From a virus, in IMG/VR virus record IMGVR_UViG_3300031227_004513, positions 1 through 40,341 of that record: DNA of 40,341 bases; one strand, written 5' to 3'. The notes under the pieces are model-generated. The model was not told where the DNA came from, searched no databases, and saw only the letters and a program-made list of their open reading frames with translations. Below, piece by piece: positions 2,452 to 32,711 of the stretch (positions are counted from its first letter, which is position 1; every line of letters begins with the position of its first letter). The position numbers and the translations under genes are program-made.

Positions 2452-2493
2452 GTGGGAGTCATTGCGGGACGTAGACCAGTTGAGGAGGACGCG

Positions 2494-2808: not shown

Positions 2809-2822
2809 CCGAGGAGGTAGGG

Positions 2823-3068: not shown

Positions 3069-3070
3069 GG

Positions 3071-3389: not shown

Positions 3390-3973
3390 TGGCAGTCGAC
3401 ACCAAGGCATACCGCAAGGCGCTGTGGAACACCAGCAGAACCATGTATGCCGAGTTCAAGGCTCGGATGGAGGAGTGCCTTGAGTCGGGCATGGTGCAGC
3501 GCGTGGCCGAACTGACCGCGATGGAGGAATTCCCGCTGCCGGTCGGGGCGGAGAGCGCGATCAAGAAGCTGACCCCGGATCAGCAGGCGGCGCTCAGGAA
3601 GAGCGAGGCCAAGGCGTTCGTGGCGCCGGGGAAGATGGACGAGGAGTCTGTCGACGACATGGAATACGGCGATCAGGACTTCGTGGGGCGGAAGACAACG
3701 CTGCGCGATTGCGCCGAGTGGGTTGCCAGCAACATCTACAACAAGGACGCCAAGGTCGAGGATGCGCCGGACGCCGTGGCGTGGAACCTCCTGGCCGATG
3801 CGAGGGCGGACGCCGAGTTCCGCCGGCGGGTCTTCTGGGACAAGATCTACCTGAAGGTCGTCGGGGCCAATGAGGATGCAGACAAGAAACGGGACGATGG
3901 AAGTGAGCTCGTGAGTACGATTCGAGATCTGCTCCAGATTCGAGACTCCGTCAGCGCCAAAGAGGCCGGATGA
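3389..3973 (+). CDS. putative terminase small subunit
   Basis: A 194-residue protein starting at ATG 3389, which overlaps the stop of the membrane-protein gene; an earlier in-frame start would extend deep into that gene. The N-terminus is helical and charged, the middle contains TLRDCAEWVASNIYN, and the C-terminal part is again helical. No signature motif is visible. The call rests on size and position: it ends 4 bases inside the large-terminase gene (ATGA overlap), where small terminase subunits usually lie. Such subunits recognise the packaging site and load the large subunit. Another packaging accessory protein cannot be excluded. Confidence 0.55.
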   Translation: MAVDTKAYRKALWNTSRTMYAEFKARMEECLESGMVQRVAELTAMEEFPLPVGAESAIKKLTPDQQAALRKSEAKAFVAPGKMDEESVDDMEYGDQDFVGRKTTLRDCAEWVASNIYNKDAKVEDAPDAVAWNLLADARADAEFRRRVFWDKIYLKVVGANEDADKKRDDGSELVSTIRDLLQIRDSVSAKEAG

Positions 3974-5889
3974 CAGCCGCCACGCCACAAGTTGAGACGC
4001 TCCTCGCATTCGAAAGGCCCAGCGACGTTCGGCGCACCGTGCCGACGCCCTATCACCACCTGGTGCCCAAGGATCTCGACGACAACCTCAAGTGGCGACT
4101 GGAACTGCTGCGGTACGGCCAGAGCTCCAAGCGCGCGGCCGATGAGCTCTGGATGATGTGCTCGAGAGACCCGCTCTTCTGGGTGGACTCGTTCGTCTGG
4201 ACGTTCAACCCGCGTCTCTCCAAGGGGCAGCGAAAGCAGCCGTGGATCAGCTACCCCTTCCAAGAAAATGCGATCCTCACGATCATCGCCGCGTCCGGCA
4301 GCATCGACGGATGCGACCCGTTCGATTGCCTCTTCGAGAAGTCACGCGATATGGGCGCAACATGGCTGGCCATCATCTGCGACGCCTACCAGTCCAGCTT
4401 CGAGGAATTCTTCTCCGCCCTCTGGGTCTCCCGTAAGGAAGACCTCGTGGACAAGGCAGACGATCCCAAGTCGATGTTCTGGAAGCTCGACTTCCTGATC
4501 GAACACCTTCCCCCCTTCCTCAGCGACAGGTTCGAGCGGAAGAAGCTGCACTACAAGAACTTCGTCACCGACTCCACCATCGACGGCGAGTCCACCACAG
4601 GCGATCTGGCCACCGGCGACCGCCGCTCCCGGATCACCCTCGATGAGTTCGCCAAGTTCGAGCGCGCCAAACCCGGCATGGGCATGAGGGCACTCAGCTC
4701 CACCGCCGATGCCACCGACTGCAGACTGTTCAACTCGACGCACGACGGCACGGGCACCGCCTTCTACATGATGGCAAAGTCCGATGTCCACAAGATCCAG
4801 TTCCATTGGTCCGCTCACCTCGTGAAAGGCGCCGGCCTCTACAGCGTCAACGAGAACGGCACGGTCAATGTGATCGACGGCGAGTACCACGAGCGGCGGC
4901 CGGGCTACGAGTTCATCCACAAGGCCGGCGGTTTCAAGGGGCTCCGTTCGCCCTGGTACGATCGTGAATGCAGACGCCGGAAGTCGAAGCTGGAGGTCGC
5001 ACAGGAACTCGACATGGACGCCCATGCGTCGGGCGGTCAGTTCTACGACAAGGACACCATCGAAGTCATCGAGACCGGGCCCACACGAACGCTTCTCGCC
5101 CCCGTGGTTCGCGGTAATGTCAGCTTCGATCCGCTCACGGGAACCTTCCGCGGCTTCAATGAGAATCCGCACACGGGCACCCTGAAGCTCTGGATGCATC
5201 CCGACGCGATCAAGCGGAAGCGCGCTGGCGTTCGCTATGTGATCGGCGTCGACGTGGCCGGCGGGTCTGATGCCTCGAATGCCTGCCTGTGCGTGGCCGA
5301 CGCGACGACCGGCGAACAGGTCGCGGAGTTCGCCGATATCGAGACCACTCCCGACAAACTGGCCAAGATCGCCATGGCCGTCGGGCTCTGGTTCAAGGTG
5401 GGCACCACGCTCCCCGAGTTGATCTGGGAACGCAACGGGCCCGGCAGCGCGTTCGGCCTCTGCATCCGAGACCTCGGGTACGACAGTTTCTATCACCGAT
5501 CCGACGCCGACACGGGCGTTCGAGACCCGAAGCCCGGCTGGCCGTCGGCACCACAGAACAACCTCGATCTCATGGGCCTCTTCCGCCGATCACTGAGCAG
5601 CGGCTCGTTCGTGATCCGCTCCGATCAGGCGCTTGAGGAGCTGAAGGCATACGTCTACACCAAGACGGGGGGCGTCGCCCACCAGGCGTCGCTGTCCATC
5701 GAGGATCCGAGCGGCGCCAAGCGAAATCACGGAGACCGGGCACGGGCCGCGGCGCTGGCCTGCCTCTGCATGGGTCTCGAACCCTCGCTCGATGAGGATG
5801 ACAAGGTGCCCGACGAAATACCCGACAACTGTTTCTTCGCGCGTCGGCAAGCGTTCCGACGGCGGAAGATGATGGACGCAACACGATGA
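3970..5889 (+). CDS. terminase large subunit (packaging ATPase-nuclease)
   Basis: A 639-residue protein, normal for the family. It pumps DNA into the prohead at the portal and cuts it. The ATPase part shows a Walker A-like KSRDMGATW (residues 124-132, the deviant form usual in large terminases) and a Walker B ITLDEF (222-227). The C-terminal RNase H-like nuclease part shows VIGVDVAGG (metal-binding Asp428), WERNGPG (Glu487) and NHGDRARAAAL (Asp589), three acidic residues in the expected order. The start overlaps the putative small subunit by 4 bases. A lipoprotein gene rather than the portal gene comes next, a small departure from the usual order. Confidence 0.93.
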   Translation: MTAATPQVETLLAFERPSDVRRTVPTPYHHLVPKDLDDNLKWRLELLRYGQSSKRAADELWMMCSRDPLFWVDSFVWTFNPRLSKGQRKQPWISYPFQENAILTIIAASGSIDGCDPFDCLFEKSRDMGATWLAIICDAYQSSFEEFFSALWVSRKEDLVDKADDPKSMFWKLDFLIEHLPPFLSDRFERKKLHYKNFVTDSTIDGESTTGDLATGDRRSRITLDEFAKFERAKPGMGMRALSSTADATDCRLFNSTHDGTGTAFYMMAKSDVHKIQFHWSAHLVKGAGLYSVNENGTVNVIDGEYHERRPGYEFIHKAGGFKGLRSPWYDRECRRRKSKLEVAQELDMDAHASGGQFYDKDTIEVIETGPTRTLLAPVVRGNVSFDPLTGTFRGFNENPHTGTLKLWMHPDAIKRKRAGVRYVIGVDVAGGSDASNACLCVADATTGEQVAEFADIETTPDKLAKIAMAVGLWFKVGTTLPELIWERNGPGSAFGLCIRDLGYDSFYHRSDADTGVRDPKPGWPSAPQNNLDLMGLFRRSLSSGSFVIRSDQALEELKAYVYTKTGGVAHQASLSIEDPSGAKRNHGDRARAAALACLCMGLEPSLDEDDKVPDEIPDNCFFARRQAFRRRKMMDATR

Positions 5890-5899
5890 AAGGGATGCC

Positions 5900-6472
5900 A
5901 TGAGAGAGTTCATGCGGTACATGATGGTCGTCGCGCTGGTCGCCTGCCTTGGCATACTGGCCCTCGGAATCGCCGCTGGCTGCACCCCGGCGCAGATCGC
6001 GCACAGCCAACAGCAGATCTCCAACGCCGAGACGCAACTTGCCACATTGGAACAGCAGCTCGCCGCGGCAACCCCAGGCTCCGACGAACACAAGGAGCTG
6101 CTCGCCTCCATTACACGAATCAAGCTCGGCCTCGAAACGCTGAACAAGAACCTCGAAGGCGCGGAAGATGAATATGGCGTGGCTCAGGCCGTCGCCCAAA
6201 CGCTTTGCCTTTTCATCGCACCGCCCTGGGGCCCGATGGTCGCAGCGGCGCTCGGACTGACCATCGGCCTCGTGAAAGACCAGAGAAGCAAGCGGAAACT
6301 GGCCGTCAGCGACCGCGCGAATGCGATCATGGTGACATCCATCAAGGATGCGAATGCCACCGTCGCCGCCGGGATGGTCAAGAAACGCTCCAAGCCGGAC
6401 GCGGCCGTCTACGCAGCCATCAAGAGCAAGGTCAAGGCGCTCGACGCCAACATCCGACATACCGAGGGCTGA
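5900..6472 (+). CDS. membrane lipoprotein, possible lysis or virion protein
   Basis: A 190-residue protein with an N-terminal hydrophobic signal (residues 7-27) ending in a lipobox, IAAGC (Cys28), so it should be lipid-anchored after signal peptidase II cleavage. Next comes a helical, probably coiled-coil segment (about 35-95), then a second hydrophobic stretch (APPWGPMVAAALGLTIGLV, about 107-130) and a basic C-terminus. The ribosome site AAAGGG lies 6 bases from the ATG. It sits between the large terminase and the portal genes. A lipobox with a coiled coil recalls outer-membrane spanins, but the second membrane segment is unusual for those. A head-assembly or ejection role is also possible. 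Confidence 0.72.
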   Translation: MREFMRYMMVVALVACLGILALGIAAGCTPAQIAHSQQQISNAETQLATLEQQLAAATPGSDEHKELLASITRIKLGLETLNKNLEGAEDEYGVAQAVAQTLCLFIAPPWGPMVAAALGLTIGLVKDQRSKRKLAVSDRANAIMVTSIKDANATVAAGMVKKRSKPDAAVYAAIKSKVKALDANIRHTEG

Positions 6473-6475
6473 TCC

Positions 6476-16020: not shown

Positions 16021-17043
16021 ATGGGACTGCACAATGCGTACGATCTTTACGCCAGAGGCGAGGCCCGCCTTCCGCAGAAGTTCGGCAACGCGGTCGAGGG
16101 CATCCTCACGGTCTACGCCGAAGGGGCGCCGACGGACGAGGGTTACGCGCCTGGCTGTCTTCGCGTTGACATCACCTCGAAGAAGACGTATCAGAACGTG
16201 GGCACGATCACCACGGCGGTGTGGGAACGTCTCGCGCCCGTCATCACCGAGGCCGCAACCCTGCACGTCAGCAAGGGCGGCAACGACACGACCGGCGACG
16301 GAAGCTCGTCCGATCCGTTCCTGACCCTGACCGCCGCATTCGCCGCCGTCGATGCCGACAACATGACGATCATCGTCCATCCGGGCGAGTACGACGAAGC
16401 CGCCGCCCTGGCCTTCCCCGTCGCGTACAACGGTCTGCGTGTCGCGGGTATGGTTGGCGAGGCGGATGCCACCGTGATCACCGCCGCCACCGGGCCCGTC
16501 ATCACCATCGATCCGGCCGCGAGGTCTGGCACGTATTGGTGCTCGTTCTCCGATCTGACCATCGAGGGCGATGCGACGGCGAACGTTGGACTCCACATCG
16601 ACAACGGAACCTGCACGAAGAAGGTGATCGTCAGCCTGCGGAACGTGAACATCGGCATGGACGACGACCAGACCGACGTGGCGATTCAGACCGTCCACTC
16701 CGACGACACCGCGAACGCGATCCGCATCTACCACAGCGGAGCGCCGAACCAGATCGAGGGCATCGTGGCCCTTGAGGTCGACAACAACGGCGACCGCTAC
16801 GAGTTCACCGGCATCAACTTCGAGGGCCCGATCCACTTCGGGAACGGCGCGGTGGCCGGCGAGAGCCGCTTCATGAACTGCATCGTGCAGAACGACGGCG
16901 CCGCCGGCGACGAGGGCAACGATGCCCAGTTCCTCGCGGCCATCAACTGCATCTCGCGCGATGGCACCACGTTCGCCATCGTCGACAAGGAAGACTTCGG
17001 AACCAACATCAGCACGAACTTCACCGCCCTTCCCGCCTCGTAA
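16021..17043 (+). CDS. beta-helix virion protein
   Basis: A 340-residue protein. After an N-terminal domain of about 75 residues comes HVSKGGNDTTGDGSSSDPFLTL (about 81-102), the opening of many right-handed parallel beta-helix (pectate-lyase-fold) proteins, followed by turns such as MTIIVHPGEYDE, DLTIEGDATANVGLHIDNG, RNVNIGMDDDQTD and ECRFMNCIVQNDG-like strands. In phages this fold is used for tailspikes, fibres and host-polysaccharide binding or cleavage. It is short for a tailspike and I see no clear catalytic pair, so attachment or a structural role is more likely. It precedes the tail-nozzle gene by 9 bases. Confidence 0.72.
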   Translation: MGLHNAYDLYARGEARLPQKFGNAVEGILTVYAEGAPTDEGYAPGCLRVDITSKKTYQNVGTITTAVWERLAPVITEAATLHVSKGGNDTTGDGSSSDPFLTLTAAFAAVDADNMTIIVHPGEYDEAAALAFPVAYNGLRVAGMVGEADATVITAATGPVITIDPAARSGTYWCSFSDLTIEGDATANVGLHIDNGTCTKKVIVSLRNVNIGMDDDQTDVAIQTVHSDDTANAIRIYHSGAPNQIEGIVALEVDNNGDRYEFTGINFEGPIHFGNGAVAGESRFMNCIVQNDGAAGDEGNDAQFLAAINCISRDGTTFAIVDKEDFGTNISTNFTALPAS

Positions 17044-19416: not shown

Positions 19417-19646
19417 TGGCCACCATACGCATTGACATCATCGTGTCGAAGGGCTCGGATCCGAACGAGATTCGCAGGGCCTTTCAGTTCGTCAATGAAG
19501 CCTTCCAAAACCTTGACGGGGTTCAGATCAGCTACGACGACGACAACAGCATCTCGGACATGATCGCCGCCAATACCGCCAATCTGGCCACTGCTTTCGC
19601 TACGCTGGTCGACCACGAAGGGCGCCTTATTGCAGGAGGACTCTGA
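19416..19646 (+). CDS. 76-residue hypothetical protein
   Basis: Begins at ATG 19416, which shares a base with the stop of the tail-nozzle gene; a GGGAGG lies 11 bases upstream. The protein has a beta-alpha character (TIRIDIIVSKGSDPNEI, then a helix RRAFQFVNEAFQNL) and ends in an amphipathic helix. Its stop overlaps the next ATG in the same way (TGATG-type joints on both sides), so it is clearly translated in series. Possibly a small tail-fibre or tail-assembly protein. No family is recognised. Confidence 0.65.
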   Translation: MATIRIDIIVSKGSDPNEIRRAFQFVNEAFQNLDGVQISYDDDNSISDMIAANTANLATAFATLVDHEGRLIAGGL

Positions 19647-20884
19647 TGGCGTTTGCCTACTGTGCGAAACCTGGCATCATCCCGTCTCCCTCACCGGAGC
19701 CGACGGATACAGAGTCGCCGTCTGAAAGTACGCCCTCGACCCCCTCGACCCCCTCAAGCGCGAGCGAGATCAGCCCGAGCGGAACATCGGTCACGCCGGA
19801 GTGGCCGTCCAGCGCCAGCAGCCCAAGCCCCTCCGAGTTCGATCCCTGTGGCAACCCGAGCACCTTCCCGAATCTGCTCGGCTGGACGACGGAAGGAACC
19901 GTCACGAGCGACGGTCTAGATGCGATTCTCTTTGGGGAAGCCTCCAAGATCTACAAGACCAAGGGTCTCACGATTTGCGAAGAGGGCTATTCATTGACGG
20001 CCCTCTCTCTCGCGGTAGAGACCTGCATCAGCAACTACTCGACGCCCGACTCCGATCAGAAACCGTCACTCACGCTCTACGCGACGAGTGGAAGCTGGAC
20101 AGTGAGCATGCTGCGCGACTTTGATGGCACACTCCTGACCTATCGGGTTGAGGGCCCGGCCTACGACCAGAGCGTCACGCTGTTGGGGTTGGCCGACACC
20201 GAACACATCGGGCTCGGCTTCACTATGCAGCTCGTAACGGGCGGCGTTCGATTCGTGGTCTTCGAGAGCGGAGACGAACTGTACGACACGATTGGGCCGC
20301 TGCCGGCAGCCTTCCCGAGCCAGAGCAACTGGGAGTACGGAACCGAAATGGCGGGCATCGAGAACGCCTACGTCGAGGTGCGGCGCATCGTCGCGACGAG
20401 CGAGGAGACGTGCAGCGCGGATGCGTCTCCGTCGCCCTCGGAAGAATCGCCATCGCCGTCGCCGTCGCCATCGCCGTCGCCGAGCCCCGAGCCGCCGGAG
20501 AATGACTGCAACGACTGTGACGAGACAGAATATGGCGCAATCCCAGACACCCTGTACCTCACATTGGGAACCCTTGATGGAGCCTTCAACAGTTACGAAG
20601 GCAAGCACACGATGGAGTGGGTCTCTGGTTGCCTCTGGGTGAGCGAGGACGGCAAGTCGTACCTTGAGTATCTGCCAAATCCGGTTGGCTCATGGCGCAT
20701 CGTTCTGAATCCGCGGCTTCCGGGCTCTGGCTCATGCGCTATCGATTGGAGGCCAAGTGGCGAATCTGATTGCGAGCCATGGACACTGACGTTCGACAAC
20801 GTAGAGGACTGCCTTGATGGCGACTCTCCGTGTGGCGGGTCCGAATGCCCGAGCAGTGGAACCGCGTCGATAAGTACAACATAA
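19646..20884 (+). CDS. virion protein with Ser-Pro linkers, probable fibre or spike component
   Basis: A 412-residue protein. A Ser/Pro/Thr linker (SPSPEPTDTESPSESTPSTP, about residues 13-60) leads to a beta-rich domain (about 75-255). A second linker, a run of SPSPSP repeats (about 258-283), leads to a C-terminal domain rich in Cys (CNDCDETEYG, then pairs near DCEP and DCLDGDSPCGGSEC), which may be disulfide- or metal-stabilised. The layout of rigid linkers between globular beta domains is that of an extended surface protein. Its position after the tail nozzle fits a fibre or spike. The repeated codons TCGCCG/TCGCCC make a mutable DNA stretch at 20425-20480. Confidence 0.66.
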   Translation: MAFAYCAKPGIIPSPSPEPTDTESPSESTPSTPSTPSSASEISPSGTSVTPEWPSSASSPSPSEFDPCGNPSTFPNLLGWTTEGTVTSDGLDAILFGEASKIYKTKGLTICEEGYSLTALSLAVETCISNYSTPDSDQKPSLTLYATSGSWTVSMLRDFDGTLLTYRVEGPAYDQSVTLLGLADTEHIGLGFTMQLVTGGVRFVVFESGDELYDTIGPLPAAFPSQSNWEYGTEMAGIENAYVEVRRIVATSEETCSADASPSPSEESPSPSPSPSPSPSPEPPENDCNDCDETEYGAIPDTLYLTLGTLDGAFNSYEGKHTMEWVSGCLWVSEDGKSYLEYLPNPVGSWRIVLNPRLPGSGSCAIDWRPSGESDCEPWTLTFDNVEDCLDGDSPCGGSECPSSGTASISTT

Positions 20885-20901: not shown

Positions 20902-21324
20902 ATGCCGAGCGGCGAACGCGATAAGTACGACAGCGCACTCAAGAAATGGACTTCAATGCCGAAGCTCAAAAAGTGCTGCCAGGGCGATCAGCGCGAGTGG
21001 CACATTAAGGTTGGCGTGTCCGCCACATCAGATGCAGGAACGCTTATTGAGACGCTGGCCTATGGAACATGCGGCGTGTCGTACATGAACCAACTCTTCT
21101 GCCGATACCACGAGGTCTTCATCAACCCGAGTGGTGTCGCATGCACACTCTGCGAGGCGCGTACCTGGCCGAAGCATGTCAACTCCCGCAGGCTCGTAGA
21201 GGAATGCCTTTCGCGGGACGGCAAGCAGGCCGCCGGAGAGCTGCTGATCGTGCTCGTGGAAAAGCAAGAGATAGACGCAGGCCGCGCATCGGAGATCGTT
21301 GATGCCCTCAACCTTGAAATCTAG
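20902..21324 (+). CDS. cysteine-rich hypothetical protein before the glycan cassette
   Basis: A 140-residue protein starting at ATG 20902 with AAGGG 8 bases upstream; longer in-frame readings overlap the previous gene and begin with a GTG lacking a ribosome site. The sequence is basic at the N-terminus (LKKWTSMPKLKKCCQG), has cysteines at several places including a CTLCEA pair near the middle, and ends with an acidic helix. A zinc or redox function is possible. The stop lies 23 bases inside the start of the four-domain enzyme, so translation of the two is coupled, which suggests (no more) that it helps that enzyme. Confidence 0.65.
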   Translation: MPSGERDKYDSALKKWTSMPKLKKCCQGDQREWHIKVGVSATSDAGTLIETLAYGTCGVSYMNQLFCRYHEVFINPSGVACTLCEARTWPKHVNSRRLVEECLSRDGKQAAGELLIVLVEKQEIDAGRASEIVDALNLEI

Positions 21325-24300
21325 AATTCGCGCTGCCGCCCGGCGTGTCGGCAAGACCGACCTCCGCGGATGCCTCTCGTGTAAGGGCAAGATGGTTCGG
21401 AAGATGGCAGCGACCGTCAGCGCCGGCCGAGCCCTCGTCGTGACGTGGGGCAAGAAGAGCGCCATGCCTGCACTGGCCGCGTCTCTGCACGTCCTCGGCT
21501 ATGACGTGGAGACCATCGAGCGTGGTGAAGGCGACTGGAAAGACGCCGTGATCGACAGCATCAGGAACGATCCCCCGGACATCTTCCTCTGTTGGCAGCG
21601 GCTCTACGATCACGGATGGTCGAAAGAGGTCAAGGGCGTTCTCGACGAGTACATGATTCCGCAGCTCTACGTGGACTTCGGGATCTGGCCGCACTACCGG
21701 AGCGTGATCTTCGACCCGATGGGCGAGAACGCGACGAGCCAGGTGGCGGGTGCGCTTCGCGGTCTTGATGCGTCTGAACCCTACAGGTCGGCGGCGAACA
21801 ATGGATCGGCCGAGATTCTGCGTGCCATGCGTCTCGGTCTGGCGGCACACGCGGCGAGGGCAGAGAACCAGCTTGCGAACCTCGGACTTGACGGGTTGCC
21901 GAAGCACTTCTCGCTGGCCATCCTTCAGCGCACAGGCGACCAGGTGCTGCGCTTCGACGCGGTCAAGAAGAGGCGGGAGCCGCTGAGACTCCTGAACGAC
22001 CTGATCGCGGAGGCAAAGAAGCAGCGACAATACATCGTGATCAAGGCGCACCCATTCGACAAGAAGATGGATCTCTCGGGCGTGAAGATGTCGGGGCGCT
22101 ACTGGCGCGTTCTCACGAAAGAGACCACGGGCGACAATGACGCCGCGATGGCCTGGCTCGTACGCGAAGCGGATTACGCGATCATGGTCAACTCGACGAG
22201 CCACCTGACGTGCCTCGCAATGGGCACGCCCGTGGTGACACTTGGCAAGGGATGGTTCACCGGCAACGAAGTCACGAGCGAGTTCAAGACGATCCGGGGT
22301 GCGGTCGCGGGCCCCAAAGATCATGATGAGCAACTGCGCGAGCGATATCTCCTGCACATGCTGTCGAGGCAACTGCCGCTGCCGGCGTGCAAGGAGGCCC
22401 CACGAATCGCATCAACCATCGACATGCTGACCAATCGCAAGGCCAGCACGCGCGACATCACCACGATCACCACCATCTACGCCGACAAGGACGCGGAAGA
22501 GGGCGTCCGCGAGACCCTTGTGTCCATCATGAAGTCGCTTCCGGGCATGGATCACATTGCTGCGGTCGACAAGGCGAGGCCGAACTTCATGCGCGAGATC
22601 GAGGCGCTCGGATTCCGCCTGATTACCATGGACGAGGGGAGCCCGCCGAGGATGATCTCCCTGCTGAAGAAAGCGCTCGATGGTGTGACCACGCGCTACG
22701 CACTGACCGTCGAGCAGGACGTGATCATCAACAAGGACACCGTCGCGGGTCTGTTGGCCCGGATGAGGGCGGTCGGTGCCGACATTGCAGGCGTCGAATC
22801 CACCTACGAAACCCGAGAGGGCAAACTCACGTTTCCGACCACGAGCCATTTCCGCAACCAGCTTCCCACGGGACAGGCGCATGTCTTCACAGACAAGAGC
22901 CACATCTGCTGGGCCTGCACACTGTGGCGAGCAGACGCGCTGAGAAGCGTGTCGTGGAATCGCGTTCCAGTGCTCGGGCACAGTGACGTGGAGATTGGCC
23001 GGCGTCTGCGCGCGAAAGGCTACCGCCTGATCCGTGATCATTCCGTGCGCTGCATTCATCTCGTTCACCAGGGCATCCGGGCGTACCAGCGTGACGCGGC
23101 CAGAGCCAAAGATCCGCTGCCGACAGTCCTGAAGCGGAGCAGTGCCCGCGGAGACGTGGTGATGGCCACGGCGGCCATGCGCGCCGTCGCCCTGCTGAAT
23201 GACACGGGCACGGTGTCCGTCGAAACCCAATGCCCTGATGTGCTTCGGAACAATCCAGACGTGATTCCGGGGAGGGGACGGGGGAGAGTTGCTTCGCTGG
23301 ACTGGTCGTATGAAGAAGGCCCGTGGGATCATGCGATACTCAGCTACTTCCAGGCGGCCGGGGTGAGCGCACGGTTGACGCCCGAGCTCATGTCCCTCTG
23401 CCGTCCGAAGGTCTACCCGAGCCGCCACATGCGACACGTAGCTGCCAAGGCGCTTCCTGACGATCAGCAATGGGCAGTCCTGCATCCGGGGCCCTGTCGC
23501 TGGCCGGAGCGCACTTGGAATCGGCTTCGCTGGCACAAGCTCGCCGACGACTTGCGGTCCCGCGGCTACGCGATCTGCGTGCTGTACGACAAGGCGGTCT
23601 CTTCCATGGTTAGCGCCGACGTGTTCAGGGACGACAGCGACACGCTCCAGTGCGCGGCCATCATTGAGCGCGCGGCTCTGTTCGTCGGTATCGACAGCGG
23701 CCCCTCGCACCTTGCGCAAGCCATGAAGCGGCCGAGCGTGATTCTGTTCGGGCCGATCACGCCGAAGACACGTCTCCACTCCCTTGTGGATCCGTCCATG
23801 TCCGGCACAGCCATCGGGGTTGAGCCCGAGGGGGTTGAGTGCGCCGGATGCGGGGAAGAGCAGCCGCGTCGGAACGGTCGAATCTTCTGCTATCGTCGGA
23901 AGCGGCCGAGCGAGTGCATGGAAGGGATCACGCTGGCCTCTGTGGTCGCCGCCGTGGATCGCGCCGAAGCACTGAAGCCCACCGAGCCGAGCGAATCCAG
24001 CAAGGTTCGAGAGAAGGTGCTGCCCTACTTGAGAGGCCGAGGGCTGGACGTAGGCTCGGGGCAACATCCGATTCTGCCGGAGGCCATTTCCATCGATGTG
24101 CGCCAGCTTCCGCAGGTCGATCTTGCGTGGGCCCACATGGACGCCCTTCCAATTCCGGACGATTGGTGCGATTATGTCTTCAGCAGCCACTGCCTTGAGC
24201 ACCTCAAAGATCCAGAGGCGGCGATTGCTGAATGGCGACGGGTTCTCAAGCCGGGCGGATACTTGGCGCTCTATCTTCCAGACCAGCCGTACACGGAAGA

Positions 24301-24433
24301 GAATGCCGAGCACCTGCACAAACTCTCGATGGAGGCGATCATGCCGTGGCTGACCGGCTTTGATCTGGTTCATCAGGCATACTGCTTCGACTATTCGTTC
24401 ATGGTCGTGGCGAAGAAACTGAAAAGCACATGA
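21302..24433 (+). CDS. four-domain glycosyltransferase-methyltransferase
   Basis: A 1043-residue protein starting at ATG 21302 (GGAG 7 bases upstream). Four enzyme domains are readable. First (about 40-375), a capsule-synthesis/Kdo-transferase-like GT-B domain: IVIKAHPFD at 245-253 and MVNSTSHLTCLAMGTPVVTLG at 295-315. Second (386-600), a GT-A glycosyltransferase: EQDV at 471-474 in the DxD place and HSDVEIGRRL at 560-569. Third (608-890), a GT9 heptosyltransferase-like domain: GDVVMATAAMRAV, HPGPCRWPERTW (728-739), GIDSGPSHLAQAM, LFGP. Fourth (905-1043), a SAM methyltransferase: GLDVGSG (914-920), DALPIPDDWCDYVFSSHCLEH, VLKPGGYL. It probably builds and methylates a surface glycan. Such fusions are rare in phages. 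The next gene overlaps by 4 bases and encodes a sulfotransferase. Confidence 0.87.
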   Translation: MPSTLKSRIRAAARRVGKTDLRGCLSCKGKMVRKMAATVSAGRALVVTWGKKSAMPALAASLHVLGYDVETIERGEGDWKDAVIDSIRNDPPDIFLCWQRLYDHGWSKEVKGVLDEYMIPQLYVDFGIWPHYRSVIFDPMGENATSQVAGALRGLDASEPYRSAANNGSAEILRAMRLGLAAHAARAENQLANLGLDGLPKHFSLAILQRTGDQVLRFDAVKKRREPLRLLNDLIAEAKKQRQYIVIKAHPFDKKMDLSGVKMSGRYWRVLTKETTGDNDAAMAWLVREADYAIMVNSTSHLTCLAMGTPVVTLGKGWFTGNEVTSEFKTIRGAVAGPKDHDEQLRERYLLHMLSRQLPLPACKEAPRIASTIDMLTNRKASTRDITTITTIYADKDAEEGVRETLVSIMKSLPGMDHIAAVDKARPNFMREIEALGFRLITMDEGSPPRMISLLKKALDGVTTRYALTVEQDVIINKDTVAGLLARMRAVGADIAGVESTYETREGKLTFPTTSHFRNQLPTGQAHVFTDKSHICWACTLWRADALRSVSWNRVPVLGHSDVEIGRRLRAKGYRLIRDHSVRCIHLVHQGIRAYQRDAARAKDPLPTVLKRSSARGDVVMATAAMRAVALLNDTGTVSVETQCPDVLRNNPDVIPGRGRGRVASLDWSYEEGPWDHAILSYFQAAGVSARLTPELMSLCRPKVYPSRHMRHVAAKALPDDQQWAVLHPGPCRWPERTWNRLRWHKLADDLRSRGYAICVLYDKAVSSMVSADVFRDDSDTLQCAAIIERAALFVGIDSGPSHLAQAMKRPSVILFGPITPKTRLHSLVDPSMSGTAIGVEPEGVECAGCGEEQPRRNGRIFCYRRKRPSECMEGITLASVVAAVDRAEALKPTEPSESSKVREKVLPYLRGRGLDVGSGQHPILPEAISIDVRQLPQVDLAWAHMDALPIPDDWCDYVFSSHCLEHLKDPEAAIAEWRRVLKPGGYLALYLPDQPYTEENAEHLHKLSMEAIMPWLTGFDLVHQAYCFDYSFMVVAKKLKST

Positions 24434-25146
24434 CGCCCATTGAACACAAATGCGCGCGCTGCGGACGCACGTTCGAGGATGACGAGGAGTGTCTGATTCA
24501 CAACGAAGACCACACGCGATGCCTTTGCGACGATTGCGCGCCCACGGCTGAGGCCCGAAAGGTCTTGATCATTGGTACGGGGCGTTGCGGAACGCACTAT
24601 TTGTCTCGGATTCTTCGACGGATCGGATGCGAGGTGCCGCATGAACGGATCGGGCATGACGGCGGAATTGGTTGGTTCTTTGCCACCGACACGCCGTGGA
24701 ACGACCATGACCGTTCGCGATTCGCATTCGGGCAGATCTGGACAGTGACGCGCGAACCGCTGGCGACGATCAGTTCACAGCATACCCACGTTCGCAAGAT
24801 GTGGAAGTTCATCGGACGAGTACAGAACTGGACGTTCCCAAAGAACAAGACACTCAGGGCTGCGTGGCACTACGTCAAGTGGAACACGCTCTGCCTTGAT
24901 CAGTCTGATTGGCATTTTCGCGTAGAGGATATTCATCGCGATAGTGCAGTCTACAGGGAGATGCGATCCCGCTTGGGACTCAGAAGACGAAAGTGTCCGA
25001 TATTGCCGACCGACATTAACACACGCAAGCACCGTCGCTCGTATAAAAGCGTCACTCTCGATGATCTGAGAGCATTGGGAGATGCTGAACTGATCTCTGC
25101 GCTGCGCGATGTATCTGCGCGATGCGGATACGTGCTAAACGACTAG
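24430..25146 (+). CDS. zinc-finger sulfotransferase
   Basis: A 238-residue protein. Residues 8-36 form a compact zinc knuckle (CARC at 8-11, CLCDDC at 31-36). Then comes the PAPS 5'-phosphosulfate loop VLIIGTGRCGTHYLSRIL (loop 49-55), and later WTVTREPLATISSQ (104-117), the place of the 3'-phosphate-binding Arg and Ser. These two elements in this order are diagnostic of the P-loop sulfotransferase fold, which moves sulfate from PAPS to a hydroxyl or amino group, usually on sugars. The N-terminal zinc finger is an unusual addition. Overlapping the four-domain enzyme by ATGA, it most likely sulfates the same glycan. By eye it is less GC-rich than its neighbours, hinting at acquisition. Confidence 0.82.
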   Translation: MTPIEHKCARCGRTFEDDEECLIHNEDHTRCLCDDCAPTAEARKVLIIGTGRCGTHYLSRILRRIGCEVPHERIGHDGGIGWFFATDTPWNDHDRSRFAFGQIWTVTREPLATISSQHTHVRKMWKFIGRVQNWTFPKNKTLRAAWHYVKWNTLCLDQSDWHFRVEDIHRDSAVYREMRSRLGLRRRKCPILPTDINTRKHRRSYKSVTLDDLRALGDAELISALRDVSARCGYVLND

Positions 25147-26373: not shown

Positions 26374-27450
26374 ATGCCGATCATATCCGAGAATCAGCCA
26401 CGATACGGTGCGATTGGCCGCGCTGCACGACGCATCGGCCAAGGCCAGCAGCTTGAGGCTGATCGCGCTGTGGCCCTCAAGGGCAAGATGTTCTACGACC
26501 AGATGGACGAGACCACGCGCCGCGGCATGGAGCAGCAGGATCAACAGCTTGAGCTTGCCGAGCTGCGCGATCTTCAGATTCAGGAGCAGATGCAGGCCGA
26601 TCTCCTGGAGCGTGGTGAGCGCGAGCAGACCGAACGCATGAAGGCGATGATGGAGGTCACGCGCACGCAGCGGCTTCAAGAGTCACGAACCATCGGGAGC
26701 CTCACCGAGAAGGCGATGTCCTACCTGCAGGTCCCCGAGAACCACACGCTGTCGCCGACGGACAACAAGGCGCTCCAAGAGGTAGCGGACACCATCGGCA
26801 AAGCGGCCGGGAATGGGAACCTGACATTCGCAGAGAGACAGCAGGCGATCATCTCGGAAGTTGCCAGAGGGCAGGTCATTATCCGACGCGCCACCAAGAC
26901 AGGCGCGACCATCGACGAGATGATCGAGAAGGATAGGCGCCCCGTTCTCTCTGGGGATGGCAGCAAGGAACGAACCGGATGGAACTACCGAGACCCGAAG
27001 ACTGGGGGCCTCGAATTCGTGAAGGACCCCGCCTATGAATCCCGCATGGCCACCGAGCGTGAGCGGATCAAGTTCGCGGCGACCACAGAGGCCGCGTTGG
27101 CGAAAGAGGAGCGTGCGACACAGGCCAAAATCCGCGCTGAGGCGTGGAAGCAGGCGTTCTTGGAGGCAAAGCCGCCGCCGGGCGGAACAAAGTCGACATG
27201 GAGTGCGGAAAAAGTCCGCGCCCGCGCTGAAGAGTTGTACCAGCAGATGTCGGCCGGCACGAAGAGTCAGGAGCCAATCCCCGACATCCCCGCGATGCCA
27301 GACGCCGACCAGATACAGGCCGCGCAGGCCGCCGTTGTGCAGAAGGTCGAAGAGGCCATCAAGGGCGGCATGTCGCGGCAGGCCGCTCTCGCGACGCTAA
27401 CTTCGGAGGAAATCATGGCTCTCATGGCCGCCCAAGCGGAGAACGGCTAA
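26374..27450 (+). CDS. internal virion protein (coiled-coil)
   Basis: A 358-residue, almost wholly helical protein rich in Gln, Glu, Arg and Lys. Coiled-coil pattern is clear at 40-100 (EQQDQQLELAELRDLQIQEQ, LLERGEREQTERMKAMMEV) and at 215-260 (RERIKFAATTEAALAKEE). The end is an amphipathic helix (MSRQAALATLTSEEIMALM). Its TAA shares a base with the ATG of the following 1753-residue gene, so both are made in step. Together with the gene before it, this forms the usual trio of podovirus ejection proteins. No catalytic site is visible. Confidence 0.68.
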   Translation: MPIISENQPRYGAIGRAARRIGQGQQLEADRAVALKGKMFYDQMDETTRRGMEQQDQQLELAELRDLQIQEQMQADLLERGEREQTERMKAMMEVTRTQRLQESRTIGSLTEKAMSYLQVPENHTLSPTDNKALQEVADTIGKAAGNGNLTFAERQQAIISEVARGQVIIRRATKTGATIDEMIEKDRRPVLSGDGSKERTGWNYRDPKTGGLEFVKDPAYESRMATERERIKFAATTEAALAKEERATQAKIRAEAWKQAFLEAKPPPGGTKSTWSAEKVRARAEELYQQMSAGTKSQEPIPDIPAMPDADQIQAAQAAVVQKVEEAIKGGMSRQAALATLTSEEIMALMAAQAENG

Positions 27451-30400
27451 TGGCTTTGTTCACGAGGGAGGAGTTGCAGGCCGAACTTGATCGGAAGATG
27501 CGCGACGAGCCTATCGCGCAACCGACTCCCGAGCCTCCGATGTTCAGCATGGACGAACTTGAGGCGGCGCTTGAGGCCAAGGGCATTGAGCCTTCCGAGC
27601 CGGAGAGGCTGTACCCCGATGAGCCTGAAGGCGAGATCGAGCGGCCGCAACATGGGATTGTAGACGAGGCCGCTTTCGCGATTGGCCGGGGGACGCTCAG
27701 GCTTGGCAGTTCCGGGATGGCGTCAGCACACGCACTCAAGACGCTTCTGCGAGGCGGTGCGCCAGAAGTAATCGGCGGCGCAAGGGGCCGCATGCTGACG
27801 GGCCTGACCAAGTTCGACCATTCGCCGACGCTGACCGAGGAATCCGAGCGTCTACTGGCGATTGCCGAGCATCCCGATGTGCAGGCGAGCGGGGACTGGG
27901 TTGGCAAGCCGCTGTCCGAGCAAATCAGTTATCCGGGGTTCTATGCTGTCAATCTCTTGGAGATGGTGCCGCAACTGTTGGGCGCAACCGTGGCTGCTGC
28001 CGCTGGTGGCCCGGCGGCGTCGCTGCTGTTCTTGACCGCGAGTGAGGGTGGCGCACACTACAACGAAGCGCGGAAGGCGGGCGCCAGCGACGAGCGCGCG
28101 GCTGTCGAGTCAGTGTTTGTGGGCGGCATCAATGCGATTCTGGAGTACATCCCGATTGCCGCGTGGTTGGATAAGGGCCCGGCGGCCGCACTCAAGAAGA
28201 AGGCCATCAGCGCTGGATTGCGTATGCTCGGAAAGGCAGGAAAATTTGCGAAGAAGGCTGCGTCGACCAAGGCCGGCCGGAAAGCCATCGGCGCACTGTC
28301 GCAGGCCGGCATGGAAGCTGTGACGGAGGCGCTTCAGGAGGCTACAGGGATAGCCGCCAACGATATTGCCGACCGCGCAGGGGCCGACTTCTTCAGTTGG
28401 GCCACGTCAGAGGAGATGGCGAGGGCCGGTATTCTTGGTGGCGTGATGGGTGGCATAATGGGGGCGGCACCTGGCGGTCAGTCCGATGTGCAGGAGCAGG
28501 CCCCTGAAGCCCAGAAACCCCCTGTTGCAGCCGCCTCAGAGGCCGCGGATGCCGAAGCGGGGGTAACACCCCTTTCTGAGTCCGAGCAAGCCACAGAGGC
28601 TCCTACGGCACCTATTGAAGACAGTCTCGCGCCGAAAAAGGCCGATGGGGAACTCGACTACGATAATATGTCGGATGATGAATTCTTGGCCCGAATAAGA
28701 AGAGGCGACCGGCCGACGATTGCCGACACCGAGCGAAGCCCGAAGAAAACAGCGAGTTTCCCGAGTGTCCTCGCGGCAGTCGATTTTGAGGGGGGTGTCA
28801 CAGCAAAGGAAGCGGGAAAGAACGCAAGCAATCTGGAGCGTAGTGACGGCATTGACGCCGCGAAAACGTACCAGCTTGAATTCGAGAGATTGAGAAACGA
28901 GGCGAGATCAGCGGAGAAGGCATCGCAAGAGTCTGAGCTTACAGAGGCTCCTACGGCACCTATTGCGGAGGCTGAGGTGGCCCCGAAGGTGGGCGATACC
29001 ACGTCCGTCATGGGCAATGACGCCAAACTCGCCCGCATGGAGACAGACGAGAACGGGATCCGGCATGAGTTGTACGAGTACCCAAGCAAGCCGGGGCAGC
29101 CATATCAAGGTGCTGCCATTCGCTCGGTTGACGTAGACTCCGGCGAAGTTGTGAGCCTGACGCGCTACCCGAAGATGGCCGACGCGCTGGCAAAGCTGCC
29201 TGATGGGGTAAAGCCCGTCTCGGAGCCCAAGCCAAAGGCATCGCTGACGAAGCCCAAGGCCGAGGCGATAACCGTCTACCACGGCACGTCGGAGTCATAC
29301 CAAGGCCCGCCAAGCACCGTTCGGCACAAGCGAGGAGACTACGTTGGGACGTATTTCTCGCAAACGCGCAAGGGTGCAGACTTGTGGGCCACCGACCCGA
29401 ACAGGCCCGCTGCCGGACGAGTTATCAAGGCGCAAGTGAGGCTTGAGAATCCAGCGAGTCGCGCCGATGTTGACGCGGCAATGGCGAAGCTGAACAAAGA
29501 GGATGGCGGATGGGATTCGGCAACGCTGACAGAGGAACTGAAAGAGCGGGGCTTCGACGGCGTCATAGACAGCGAAGTTCGGAATGAGATCGTGGTGTTC
29601 GACGATTCCCAAATCGCACAAGGGCCAGCCAAGCCCGCAGGGCTTCCGAGCTTTGTGGACAGCACTGGCACTCGGTACGTGATGGACAACAAGGGCCGGT
29701 GGAACACTGAGGCAGGCGAGCGCGTCACAAGCCCTGCCGTCGCGGCGCGTGTCGATGCCGAATACGCGAAGCAGCAGGCGAAACCGAAGGAGCCTCTGGC
29801 CCAATACGGCGAGTCCAACAAGATCGTCACCACCGAGTCCAAGGACGCCGCGCTCAAGAGCATCGCCGACAAGATGAAGCGGCTCCACACGGGGCTGCCG
29901 GTTGACATGGTCGCTCCGCTGGTGACGATCGGCGTGTACCACTTCGAGGCTGGGGCCCGGACGTTCAAGGACTGGTCGGCCAAGATGATTGCCGAGGTCG
30001 GCGAGAACATCAAGCCGCACCTGAAGGCGATCTGGGATCGGACGCAGACCAGTCGCAAGGCTCTTGATCAAGATGGTGTCAATGCGCAGGCTGGGAAGGA
30101 TATGACGATTCCGCCGCCCGACAGTCCCATCCCGGCAGAGGCGGCGCCAGCCGAGGCCCAGATGCCCGACGTGCGCGAGGTCGGAGATCACGGGCTCACC
30201 GAGACCATCGACAAGTGGCAGGGCGACAGGGATGTTGCGGCATTCGACCACGACGTGAATATGCGAACCCATCGTGACGAGATCGCCGAGATGGTTGGCG
30301 AGAAGCGTTACGGGAAGAAGGCTCGGATGCTGGACGAGGCGATCCACCGCTACATTGACCTCAAGGGCAAGGCGGCGGAAGAGATTGCCAAGTACGGTGA

Positions 30401-32711
30401 TAAGGTCTCGGATGCCTCAAGGGCCGTCGTAAACCGATCTCAGAACCTCACCAAGAAAGAAACCGCCTACGCAGAACGAATGATCGCTGAAAACGCAGAG
30501 ATTGGGGCGCGGGCGAAGGATGCCGGAGTCATCCGGAATGTCCATGAGAACTACACGGCACGGATCTACCGCTTCTCGAAGAAGTCGATGAAGCGCGTCA
30601 TGCCGAAGTTCAGCCAGACAACCGCCCGAGCCAAGCAGCGGACACTCACCTCGATTCTTGAGGCGGAGTCGAAGGGGTATGAGCTGGCCGTCCCCACCGC
30701 GACAGAAGCCCAGAGGGTTGCGGCCGACCAGACGACGCAGGCCATGCTGGATCGGAATCTCGTCAAGATGGCGCTGAAGTCCGGCATCTTCAAGCGGTCA
30801 CAAGAGGCCGGCTACGAGCCGCTCAAACATCCCGGCCTGCATACGTGGGTTCCTCGAGCGAACATCAAGGAAGAGGATGCGAGTGGCCTGAACTTCTTCA
30901 CGGCAGAGGACGGCACCGTGTGGGAGAGAATCCCACTCTATGCGCTTCCGCACATCGCGAAGCACCTGAACAACGCCCTCGGCACGTCGATGTTCGAGGA
31001 CGTAGGGACGCTTAAGAAGGCCGCGGAGGTATCGGACGCGCTCAAGCGCATGATCTTCGTCCAGAGTTTCTTCCACCACCAAGCGTTCTTCCGCTCTGCC
31101 GCACTCGCCGGCCGTGGCTTCAATCTCGTGAAGGGATACGAGATGGGCCGCGAGGCCATCATGCAGAAGAACCCGAGGCTGCGCGAGCTTATCCACGCGG
31201 AACTGACCATCGGCCTGGCTCAGGACTTCGAGAGCATCAAAACGTCGGAGAAGTCCCGGATCGAGGCCCTCATCAACGACAATGCCGTCGGTCACGTCCG
31301 CGACTTCATGCGGGACATGCGCGATCGGCACATGGAACACCTCTTCGGGAAGATCGGCCCCTACCTAAAGGCGTGGACTGCCCTGCTGGAATACGATCAC
31401 CTGCTGGCGAAATATGCGCCAAAGATCGAGGCGGGAACGATGACGCGCCAACAGGTTGCCACGATTGTCGCCAAGAGGGTGAACGATGACTTCGGCGGGC
31501 TGAACCTGGCTCGCATGGGGCGGAACAAGACCATCCAGAGTTTCTTGAGGACGTTCCTTCTCGCGCCTGACTGGACGGAATCGAACGTGAGGTCGATGGT
31601 CAAGGCGCTGGTGAAGGTGAAGCCGCAGGACTTCGACAACCCGACGAACGTGTTCAGGCGGCTCAGGCTTGCCACGGGCCCCGAGGGCGCTGCCTACAGG
31701 GCGATGTGGAGCCGCGTGGCCCTCAAGGGCGGTGCCATAACGCTTGCGGCGAACCTGCTGATGGCATCCATTGATGACGAGGACTTCTTCGAGAGGTACA
31801 AGAGGGCGTGGGCAGAAGGCAATCTTCGATGGCTGGATGTCGATGTGACGCCCATCTATCGGTTCTTCACGTCGCTGCTCGGCGGCACACCAGACGCGCA
31901 GAGGAAATACTTCTCGATCTTCGGCCACACCCGAGACCCGATCAAGTTCGCCGTCAACCCCGTGCGCTCGCTCAAGCACAAGCTGCATCCGTTTGGCCCT
32001 GGCCTTGCGCTTGAGGCAATGACCGGCGAGGACTACGCGCAGCGTCCATTCACCACGAATGCCGAGTTCTTTGGGCTTGACCCCAAGGGGAAACTCGCCG
32101 GGAAGACCGTGAAGAGCCCCTTCAAAAAGGGCGGGCCAGTCACCATCTCTAAAGCGGTGCCGTTCGGCATCCATTCGGCGCGACGCTTCCTGCCGATACC
32201 GGCACAGCAGTTGGTGGCCTTCCTCGCAGGCGAAGTAGATGCGTTCGATGCCATCACCAAGGCGGCGGGCCTGATGACTTCTACGACCTACGCCAAGGGC
32301 GCTGCGTGGGGGAACATGGACCCGGAGATGCAGACCGTCGAGGCGTCCGTTGCTCTGAATGACCTCTTCTCGGCGCACAAGAAGCTGAAGGAAGCGAAGA
32401 GGGAATACGCGGATCGTGACGCACCGATGCCGGCGGATCGTGCGCGACTCCTGGCCGTGATCGAGCCTGCAGCCAAGGGCATAATGCTGATGCGTCGGGC
32501 GATAGACAAGGGGCTTGCCCGAGAGGGCGAGGCGAAGATCACCGAAGAGCAGATATCCGAGATTACAGCGAACGTGATGAGCGTAGTTCAGGAGGCGACG
32601 GCCGCCATGAAGAAGGAGACCTCTGACCGAGGCCGGAGCTTCGATGGCGCTCGGAAGCAATCCCCCCAGAAGCGCAGAAAGCTCACGCTCCCGAAGGCGA
32701 ATCCCAAGTAG
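27450..32711 (+). CDS. giant internal virion protein, polyvalent type with ART-like domain
   Basis: A 1753-residue protein, the largest in the window. The N-terminal 340 residues contain amphipathic helices and a membrane-active part (AFAIGRGTLRLGSSGMAS; LLGATVAAAAGGPAASLLFL at 177-195; GILGGVMGGIMGAA). A linker with TEAPTAPI twice follows. Residues 607-723 resemble the ADP-ribosyltransferase-like domain of phage polyvalent proteins: VYHGTS (609-614), GTYFS (633-637), ERGFDGVI (699-706), EIVVFDDSQIA (713-723). A GVYHFEAGARTFKDWSAKM segment (828-846) and a C-terminal part with LRTFLLAPDWTESNVR match the large-polyvalent-protein C-terminal region. These proteins are packed in the virion and injected; the ART-like part may modify host proteins. 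Ribosyltransferase activity is inferred only. Confidence 0.8.
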   Translation: MALFTREELQAELDRKMRDEPIAQPTPEPPMFSMDELEAALEAKGIEPSEPERLYPDEPEGEIERPQHGIVDEAAFAIGRGTLRLGSSGMASAHALKTLLRGGAPEVIGGARGRMLTGLTKFDHSPTLTEESERLLAIAEHPDVQASGDWVGKPLSEQISYPGFYAVNLLEMVPQLLGATVAAAAGGPAASLLFLTASEGGAHYNEARKAGASDERAAVESVFVGGINAILEYIPIAAWLDKGPAAALKKKAISAGLRMLGKAGKFAKKAASTKAGRKAIGALSQAGMEAVTEALQEATGIAANDIADRAGADFFSWATSEEMARAGILGGVMGGIMGAAPGGQSDVQEQAPEAQKPPVAAASEAADAEAGVTPLSESEQATEAPTAPIEDSLAPKKADGELDYDNMSDDEFLARIRRGDRPTIADTERSPKKTASFPSVLAAVDFEGGVTAKEAGKNASNLERSDGIDAAKTYQLEFERLRNEARSAEKASQESELTEAPTAPIAEAEVAPKVGDTTSVMGNDAKLARMETDENGIRHELYEYPSKPGQPYQGAAIRSVDVDSGEVVSLTRYPKMADALAKLPDGVKPVSEPKPKASLTKPKAEAITVYHGTSESYQGPPSTVRHKRGDYVGTYFSQTRKGADLWATDPNRPAAGRVIKAQVRLENPASRADVDAAMAKLNKEDGGWDSATLTEELKERGFDGVIDSEVRNEIVVFDDSQIAQGPAKPAGLPSFVDSTGTRYVMDNKGRWNTEAGERVTSPAVAARVDAEYAKQQAKPKEPLAQYGESNKIVTTESKDAALKSIADKMKRLHTGLPVDMVAPLVTIGVYHFEAGARTFKDWSAKMIAEVGENIKPHLKAIWDRTQTSRKALDQDGVNAQAGKDMTIPPPDSPIPAEAAPAEAQMPDVREVGDHGLTETIDKWQGDRDVAAFDHDVNMRTHRDEIAEMVGEKRYGKKARMLDEAIHRYIDLKGKAAEEIAKYGDKVSDASRAVVNRSQNLTKKETAYAERMIAENAEIGARAKDAGVIRNVHENYTARIYRFSKKSMKRVMPKFSQTTARAKQRTLTSILEAESKGYELAVPTATEAQRVAADQTTQAMLDRNLVKMALKSGIFKRSQEAGYEPLKHPGLHTWVPRANIKEEDASGLNFFTAEDGTVWERIPLYALPHIAKHLNNALGTSMFEDVGTLKKAAEVSDALKRMIFVQSFFHHQAFFRSAALAGRGFNLVKGYEMGREAIMQKNPRLRELIHAELTIGLAQDFESIKTSEKSRIEALINDNAVGHVRDFMRDMRDRHMEHLFGKIGPYLKAWTALLEYDHLLAKYAPKIEAGTMTRQQVATIVAKRVNDDFGGLNLARMGRNKTIQSFLRTFLLAPDWTESNVRSMVKALVKVKPQDFDNPTNVFRRLRLATGPEGAAYRAMWSRVALKGGAITLAANLLMASIDDEDFFERYKRAWAEGNLRWLDVDVTPIYRFFTSLLGGTPDAQRKYFSIFGHTRDPIKFAVNPVRSLKHKLHPFGPGLALEAMTGEDYAQRPFTTNAEFFGLDPKGKLAGKTVKSPFKKGGPVTISKAVPFGIHSARRFLPIPAQQLVAFLAGEVDAFDAITKAAGLMTSTTYAKGAAWGNMDPEMQTVEASVALNDLFSAHKKLKEAKREYADRDAPMPADRARLLAVIEPAAKGIMLMRRAIDKGLAREGEAKITEEQISEITANVMSVVQEATAAMKKETSDRGRSFDGARKQSPQKRRKLTLPKANPK
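28593..28965 (+). repeat. exact 25-bp direct repeat inside the giant virion gene
   Basis: A 25-bp sequence is repeated without change at 28593-28617 and 28941-28965. Both copies are in the same frame and encode TEAPTAPI in the two linkers around a small helical domain (about residues 390-495). The repeat would allow recombination that deletes or duplicates that domain exactly. Confidence 0.9.

Follow-up and report, generated by a model that had tools for sequence, protein, structure and literature searches.

A predicted glycan-building, methylating and sulfating gene cassette among the virion genes of an uncultured podovirus-like phage

What do three overlapping genes, two of them encoding predicted glycan enzymes, do inside a run of phage virion genes? 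The question is raised by the window analyzed here, the whole 40,341-nucleotide stretch of IMG/VR virus record IMGVR_UViG_3300031227_004513, from an uncultured podovirus-like phage. The genes stand in tandem on the + strand: g1 (20902..21324, a 140-aa open frame with an ATG start), g2 (21302..24433, an open frame for a single polypeptide of 1043 aa) and g3 (24430..25146, an open frame of 238 aa). As the original prediction had it, they are collinear and overlap in series, by exactly 23 bases (g1/g2) and 4 bases (g2/g3, ATGA). Their position between tail and internal-virion genes likewise agrees with the matches to portal, SU10 adaptor and podoviral capsid families and with the large protein encoded downstream, most of the neighbors being without a family match. 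This late structural block had been taken as a ground for virion decoration or late host-surface change over early takeover; the setting is confirmed, but since virion genes occupy most of the record, location in the block is by itself weak evidence for this one genome. A 19-residue hydropathy scan detected no transmembrane segments in the three products (highest value 1.22, as compared with 2.55 for a control membrane-type segment of the window), which suggests that they act in the cytoplasm. Promoter and terminator scans gave results near chance level.

The g2 product appears to be a soluble four-domain glycan enzyme, in which three of the four domains pass the curated Pfam cut-off. The first is a Capsule_synth (KpsC/KpsS-like, GT-B) domain at 21899..22363 on the + strand (aa 200-354; PF05159, E 1.8e-8), with the motifs HPF and NSTSHL..G.PVV.LG; its score of 34.7 bits against a cut-off of 20 comes from profile positions 144-300 of 310 only, and the NCBIfam KpsS model also matches g2 (E 9.7e-4). 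The second, at 22496..23065 (+ strand, about aa 399-588), has an acidic EQD motif at aa 471 and resembles the GT2 (GT-A) enzymes, with E values of 0.0021 for PF13632 and 0.0094 for PF00535 (1.2e-5 in a record-size search); both fall below their curated cut-offs (18.4 against 27 bits and 16-20 against 23.3 bits, respectively). The third, a GT9 (heptosyltransferase-like) domain at 23132..23942 (+ strand, about aa 610-880, the ends placed by inspection), displays the motifs RGD (616), HPGP (728) and DSGPSHLA (798). It is recovered by PF01075 over aa 668-822 (E 4.2e-14; 52.9 bits against a cut-off of 22, and 54.3 bits in a record-size search) and by TIGR02201 of NCBIfam (E 1.1e-10), while the heptosyltransferases I and II of the PDB match it with E values of 0.015-0.023. 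The C-terminal domain, at 24032..24334 (+ strand, aa 911-1011), is of the class I SAM-dependent methyltransferase type (PF08241, Methyltransf_11, E 3.6e-13, 50.4 against 21.2 bits; PF13489, E 1.1e-9). Hence, the earlier description of g2 as a four-domain transferase holds for Capsule_synth, Glyco_transf_9 and Methyltransf_11, but its second domain stays GT2-like.

The third gene is predicted to combine a Cys/His-rich N-terminus with a PAPS-sulfotransferase fold and the corresponding activity. On its own g3 passes no Pfam cut-off, and Foldseek comparison of its structure model (pLDDT 71.5) with the PDB gave a best E value of 0.02 and none below 0.001; the assignment therefore relies on VIA-align re-scoring, family matches and motifs rather than on Foldseek. 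On re-scoring against the PDB, sulfotransferases made up 50 of 50 among the matches listed, the best Z being 12.0 over 165 residues (4gox), followed by 4gbm (11.9) and TPST2 (11.1). Its family was collected by active-site patterns, blind to genomic context. In the 10-row family alignment, which includes g3, the phosphosulfate loop GTGRCGT (of the type G-x-G-R-[CS]-G-T), the R108 and S116 of the 3' phosphate motif (R...S) and H71 are all invariant, and a 17-row alignment keeps the loop, the Arg/Ser pair and a His-Glu pair. Sulfotransfer_3 matches are found in six of the 10 family members, with E values of up to 1, and one member (L017) exceeds the cut-offs of both Sulfotransfer_4 (44.7 against 22.8 bits) and Sulfotransfer_3 (30.6 against 27). 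The C-terminal half of this L017 fusion was read by eye as a GT-A enzyme; searches gave that reading no support, so this half is left out of the glycosyltransferase counts below.

Compared with the PAPS-dependent P-loop sulfotransferases (Sulfotransfer_1/3/4; CurM, the Ols domains, TPST2, StaL/Teg), with which it shares the fold, the phosphosulfate loop and the R...S motif, g3 is smaller and divergent (26-28% identity to its kin), and it has the distinctive N-terminus. There a possible zinc-binding stretch (24451..24537, + strand; C8, C11, C21, H24, H28, C31, C33, C36) follows the pattern CxxC-x9-C-x2-H-x3-H-x2-C-x-C-x2-C and is missing from the other family members. Of the earlier label, zinc-finger sulfotransferase, the second word is backed by the family and the modeled fold, but the first amounts to this residue pattern and a Zn_ribbon_8 match with an E value of 0.91.

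The product of g1, preceded by a ribosome-binding-like AAGGG upstream of its ATG, is a soluble protein with 5.0% Cys, as against 0-2% in most other genes of the window, in keeping with its earlier description as Cys-rich. No relatives of it were found in phages, viral contigs or Pfam, and a single-sequence structure model was discarded as too poor (pLDDT 41). By its position alone, g1 might encode an accessory protein.

The enzyme content originally proposed, namely the making, methylation and sulfation of a glycan, is thus supported by the domain and fold evidence. A candidate acceptor is the 412-aa protein encoded just upstream (19646..20884, + strand), with Ser/Thr/Pro-rich tracts at about aa 11-70 and 256-292. 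Such mucin-like tracts are confined in this genome to that gene: windows of 30 residues with at least 60% S/T/P number 62 of 383 in its product and 0 of 10,014 in 25 other genes. No comparable Ser/Thr/Pro-rich protein was seen adjoining the relatives, a point against a virion acceptor.

We consider it somewhat better than an even chance that the cassette assembles and sulfates a glycan on a virion protein of this phage, a gene-level reading in which the soluble, cytoplasmic g2 would build and methylate a short glycan, and g3 would sulfate it with host PAPS as the donor. The two would act in one pathway. The glycan would be joined at a late stage to one of the proteins that make up the phage particle, the likeliest being the upstream Ser/Thr/Pro-rich protein or another tail or head protein, and might serve there in shielding, receptor binding or solubility.

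Evidence bearing on this reading comes from the gene neighborhoods of relatives, which had been named originally as a check on the cassette. Against it, the collections searched yielded no close kin of the complete cassette, nor any whole g2 or g3 relative in phage records (by DNA and protein) or viral contigs (by exact peptides); cyanophage matches to g2 are at the level of the methyltransferase only, and a strict, narrow GT9 motif scan of viral contigs returned nothing. A terminase search for kin of the phage recovered one contig only (12.6-kb, 100% identical), and searches by major capsid protein (MCP) and portal recovered none. The nearest relatives of the g2 methyltransferase (41-44% identity) are methyltransferase-GT9 fusions in the capsid modules of two proviruses (L038, L039). 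These share enzyme types with g2 and are encoded between capsid and tail-adaptor genes, but their domain order is reversed, KpsC/S-like and GT2-like domains are missing from them, and no adjoining sulfotransferase was seen. The capsid families of the window and of these proviruses did not match each other at that place; hence, these proviruses are not near relatives of this phage.

For the sulfotransferase (ST) family, nine of 13 viral or proviral lineages have the family member in a head/tail gene block, and in 10 it lies beside, is fused to, or shares a module with a glycosyltransferase (GT), as raw counts with no formal P value attached. The arrangements include MCP>ST>GT4 (L007), MCP>ST>glucosyltransferase (L008; phrog_854, 3.5e-35), MCP>ST>GT-A in cultured Salinibacter ruber phages (L024), a major tail gene and ST>GT4 ahead of the tape measure (L013), MCP with a GT4-ST fusion (L019), and MCP followed by GT>NTP-transferase-like>ST and then tail genes in a provirus (L020). 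In the unrelated virus L035, the order is MuF>ST>protease>MCP, followed by a 1001-aa GT4-methyltransferase-GT2 protein, so that the pair is set around the head genes. The anticipated linkage is thus found for the sulfotransferase family with glycosyltransferases in head/tail blocks, but is absent in two related viruses, L014, where no glycosyltransferase adjoins the sulfotransferase, and L009 (see below). Two cellular relatives, L032 among exopolysaccharide genes and L033 fused to a GT2, add to the support for a link with glycan synthesis. Because of this recurrent linkage, decoration of the virion, the first of the options originally offered, is favored, but modification of the host envelope stands as an alternative.

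According to that alternative, which is unlikely on balance while still a substantial contender, the enzymes would act on a glycan of the host envelope, be it LPS core, capsule or exopolysaccharide, either at a late stage of infection or during lysogeny, blocking superinfection or aiding release, and the virion would not be the target. It draws on the types of the g2 domains, two of which pass the cut-offs of the KpsC/KpsS capsule transferase and GT9 heptosyltransferase families of Gram-negative envelopes; the normal substrates of such enzymes are lipid-linked envelope glycans, which counts against the virion reading. The g2 gene fuses both types in one soluble phage protein with GT2-like and methyltransferase domains. 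Also in favor of the envelope reading, the exopolysaccharide cluster that holds the cellular sulfotransferase relative L032 includes a sugar transferase, a GT4 and a methyltransferase, and a jumbo-phage member (L016) is accompanied by a GT2 and a UDP-galactopyranose mutase. Against this, unrelated phages repeatedly place the family beside capsid and head-tail joining genes. Further, the Gtr proteins of serotype-converting phages are polytopic, whereas the cassette is devoid of any membrane-spanning protein.

The remaining explanations carry little weight. That the sulfotransferase and the glycosyltransferase fusion are unrelated acquired cargo, adjacent by chance and with no joint function, would accord with the GC3 of g3, which at 0.64 is the lowest of those measured, most other genes lying at 0.7-0.9, and with the want of relatives sharing gene order for g1 and g2; it is nonetheless improbable, given that the genes overlap in one run and that the functional pairing recurs, extending to sulfotransferase-glycosyltransferase fusions in the virus L019 and in a cell (L033, with a GT2). 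The divergence of g3 and its failure to pass a Pfam cut-off could also indicate a sulfotransferase-like P-loop fold with another activity, or an inactive glycan- or nucleotide-binding protein, which the retained loop, Arg/Ser and His-Glu pairs and the uniformly sulfotransferase matches among those listed render very improbable. Finally, hypermodification of phage DNA bases, rather than of a protein or envelope glycan, is brought to mind by L009, in which the sulfotransferase gene shares bases with one for HMUDK_hel (PF18723, E 1.8e-46) and has a thymidylate-synthase-type gene (E 5.9e-23) nearby. Both PF18723 and PF00303 (thymidylate-synthase-type) are absent from the window record, and PF18723 is absent from the other virus records searched with that profile, making this explanation barely plausible here.

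Returning to virion decoration, a parallel is provided by the mycobacteriophages Che8, Corndog and Myrna, whose phage-encoded glycosyltransferases modify capsid and tail-tube subunits (Freeman et al. 2023, as cited in the accessible portions of PMC12363180 and PMC12619734). The presence of glycosyltransferase genes among virion genes is common to the window and its relatives; a decorated particle is established in those mycobacteriophages and predicted here, no sulfotransferase is reported for them in those portions, and here a single polypeptide unites three GT-like domains with a methyltransferase. Cyanophages and OM43 phages encode Sulfotransfer_3 proteins which, like g3, belong to the sulfotransferase superfamily but represent other subfamilies; in the accessible part of PMC10580990 such phage proteins are often annotated, their function is called unclear, and no association with virion or glycosyltransferase genes is mentioned. 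A literature search found no description of such cassettes, most subscription papers being outside its reach.

The recurrence of a sulfotransferase-glycosyltransferase pair beside capsid genes turns these often-annotated enzymes into a testable hypothesis of sulfated virion glycans, for which the Salinibacter ruber phages offer a cultured system. Tentatively, and at rather less than even chance, several unrelated phage lineages might carry dedicated virion-sulfation modules, in which a glycosyltransferase/methyltransferase enzyme and a sulfotransferase, encoded among capsid or tail genes, would give the particle a sulfated glycan of negative charge, the acceptor here being the neighboring mucin-like protein. 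If so, sulfate would join glycosylation as a means by which phages alter particle charge, adsorption and recognition. In a tree of 17 sulfotransferases no inner branch is strongly supported, and a single origin of the virion-linked versions would go beyond these data; they do appear to cluster, the virion-block label requiring three changes on the tree as compared with a shuffled mean of 6.0.

The three genes of the cassette, g1 (20902-21324), g2 (21302-24433) and g3 (24430-25146), occur in tandem with open frames and, as predicted, overlap by exactly 23 and then 4 bases. An AAGGG resembling a ribosome-binding site lies 5' of g1 and a GGAG 5' of g2, while g3 starts within the stop of g2 (ATGA), a start-in-stop overlap that is the usual layout for coupled translation. 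With GC at 0.55 and GC3 at 0.64, g3 ranks below every other gene measured, which hints that it was acquired recently. The 40,341-base linear virus record carries YqaJ exonuclease and RecT genes at its far end, and its portal and adaptor, which resemble those of SU10, together with a capsid protein resembling podoviral capsids, identify the phage at the sequence level as short-tailed-type.

No relative of g1 was found, and none of the three proteins has a predicted membrane segment. The g2 gene encodes a single 1043-residue protein with, in Pfam terms, successive Capsule_synth (KpsC/KpsS-like), weak glycosyltransferase (GT) 2-like, GT9 heptosyltransferase-like and SAM methyltransferase domains; three of the four reach the curated cut-offs, GT2 falling below, and family-typical motifs were found in the domains. 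By itself g3 has no Pfam match; its relatives in viral contigs were recovered with a DNA pattern for the active-site loop that is blind to gene context. Across this family GTGRCGT, His71, Arg108 and Ser116 are invariant and Glu72 nearly so, and six of ten members match Sulfotransfer_3, with one clearly above the Sulfotransfer_4 cut-off. The AlphaFold2 model of g3 (pLDDT 71.5) retrieved sulfotransferases (STs) in all 50 of the 50 structure matches listed (Z 12.0 for the Ols domain, 11.1 for TPST2), the Foldseek E-values being weak. Hence, of the predicted zinc-finger sulfotransferase, motifs, family matches and fold uphold the enzyme, whereas the finger reduces to a Cys/His pattern (residues 8-36) absent from the relatives. 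Among viral structures g3 has its best fold match in BFVD A0A5J6VJR2, a Megaviridae protein of 1202 aa from an environmental sample that is named 'capsular polysaccharide synthesis protein'; giant viruses may therefore have a comparable fusion.

Among 13 viral or proviral lineages, the window included, the ST lies inside the head/tail gene block in nine (the window again among them), and a GT adjoins it, is fused to it or (L020, L035) lies a few genes away in ten, several neighbours being called by weak matches or position alone. The major capsid protein (MCP) gene is followed by the ST and then a GT4 in L007 or a glucosyltransferase (phrog_854) in L008, and by neck genes and a GT4-ST fusion in L019. 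In L013 a major tail protein lies upstream of ST, GT4, tail completion and tape measure genes; in the Microbispora provirus L020 the order is MCP, connectors, GT, NTP-transferase-like, ST, gp17, major tail and tape measure. In cultured Salinibacter ruber M8 phages (L024, 7604-10745) MCP, ST and GT-A genes, all annotated hypothetical, stand in tandem; the ST homologue is present in 184 Salinibacter ruber phage records, and the GT-A enzyme matches B4GALNT1 (E 3.9e-5). A TnpB-like gene (PF07282) lies upstream there at 2327-3571. The uncultured virus L035 carries MuF, ST, head protease and major head protein genes and then a 1001-aa GT4-methyltransferase-GT2 protein (4469-7474) that is an independent analogue of g2. 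Outside proven virion blocks, the ST has GT2 neighbours in L015 and L016, the latter also with a UDP-galactopyranose mutase. Linkage of the cassette in related phages thus holds in part: in L014 no GT adjoins the ST, in L009 the ST overlaps an HMUDK_hel gene instead, and in L017, one of the nine head/tail cases, the ST belongs to a 535-aa fusion, immediately 3' of tail-completion gp17, with an unassigned partner. In the collections searched, no near relative of the phage carries this cassette, and its analysis as a whole covers one genome.

The relatives of g2 lead to the same place. Among 398 Pseudomonadota genomes its nearest matches are two, both to the methyltransferase domain alone (41-44% identity), and each carries a fused GT9-like domain, recognised from its sequence, in the order opposite to that of g2 (L038, 5023-6624; L039, reverse strand, rc 5555-7108). 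Both fusions, which have no homologues in cultured phages, lie in proviruses between tail-adaptor-like genes and an MCP-like gene whose product shares 55% identity with a conserved Vibrio podovirus protein. Hence two parts of the cassette, g3 and the methyltransferase of g2, lead independently to capsid modules.

A candidate acceptor lies directly 5' of the cassette. The protein of 19646-20884 has two mucin-like Ser/Thr/Pro tracts, the sole such tracts in the genome: 62 of its 383 30-residue windows contain at least 60% S/T/P, versus none of 10,014 windows across 25 other genes. O-glycosylated linkers typically have tracts of this kind. No equivalent neighbour was seen beside the ST relatives.

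Gene layout, domains, fold and linkage are established here and agree with the original prediction that the cassette could make, methylate and sulfate a surface glycan, of which we infer the pathway, acceptor and use. Most likely, g2 would transfer two or three sugars one after another and methylate one of them, g3 would add sulfate from host PAPS, and a virion protein would carry the product. The main rival, modification of the host envelope, is possible if rather doubtful; the KpsC/S and GT9 domains of g2 fit it, such enzymes being classic for envelope modification. Few cellular genomes encode a member of the ST family (3/396 and 2/398, in sets taken from the phyla to which two known carriers belong, those carriers included). 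One cellular ST (L032) lies in an exopolysaccharide-type cluster with a methyltransferase, GT4 and sugar transferase, and an Actinomycetota genome (L033, 6787-9525) encodes a 912-aa GT2-ST fusion, whose middle part appears TPR-like by eye. Together these support a glycan acceptor and also keep the envelope reading alive. In one virus, L009 (5991-9569), a family member overlaps a gene for HMUDK_hel (5-hmdU DNA kinase helical domain) near a thymidylate-synthase-type gene, possibly connecting the ST fold with hypermodification of DNA bases; for the cassette this role is unlikely because both genes are absent from the window record.

Che8, Corndog and Myrna are known to have their virions glycosylated by phage GTs (PMC12363180), and phage sulfotransferases are already known, their function being called unclear in PMC10580990. 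A search for 'phage-encoded sulfotransferase', covering neither most subscription journals nor any preprints, found no paper. Elsewhere in the window, a 1753-aa putative internal virion protein (27450-32711) matches DarB-like antirestriction proteins (phrog_10089, E 4.3e-13), and a tail-type protein (16021-17043) matches DUF1565 and an LIC10774-type surface protein model.
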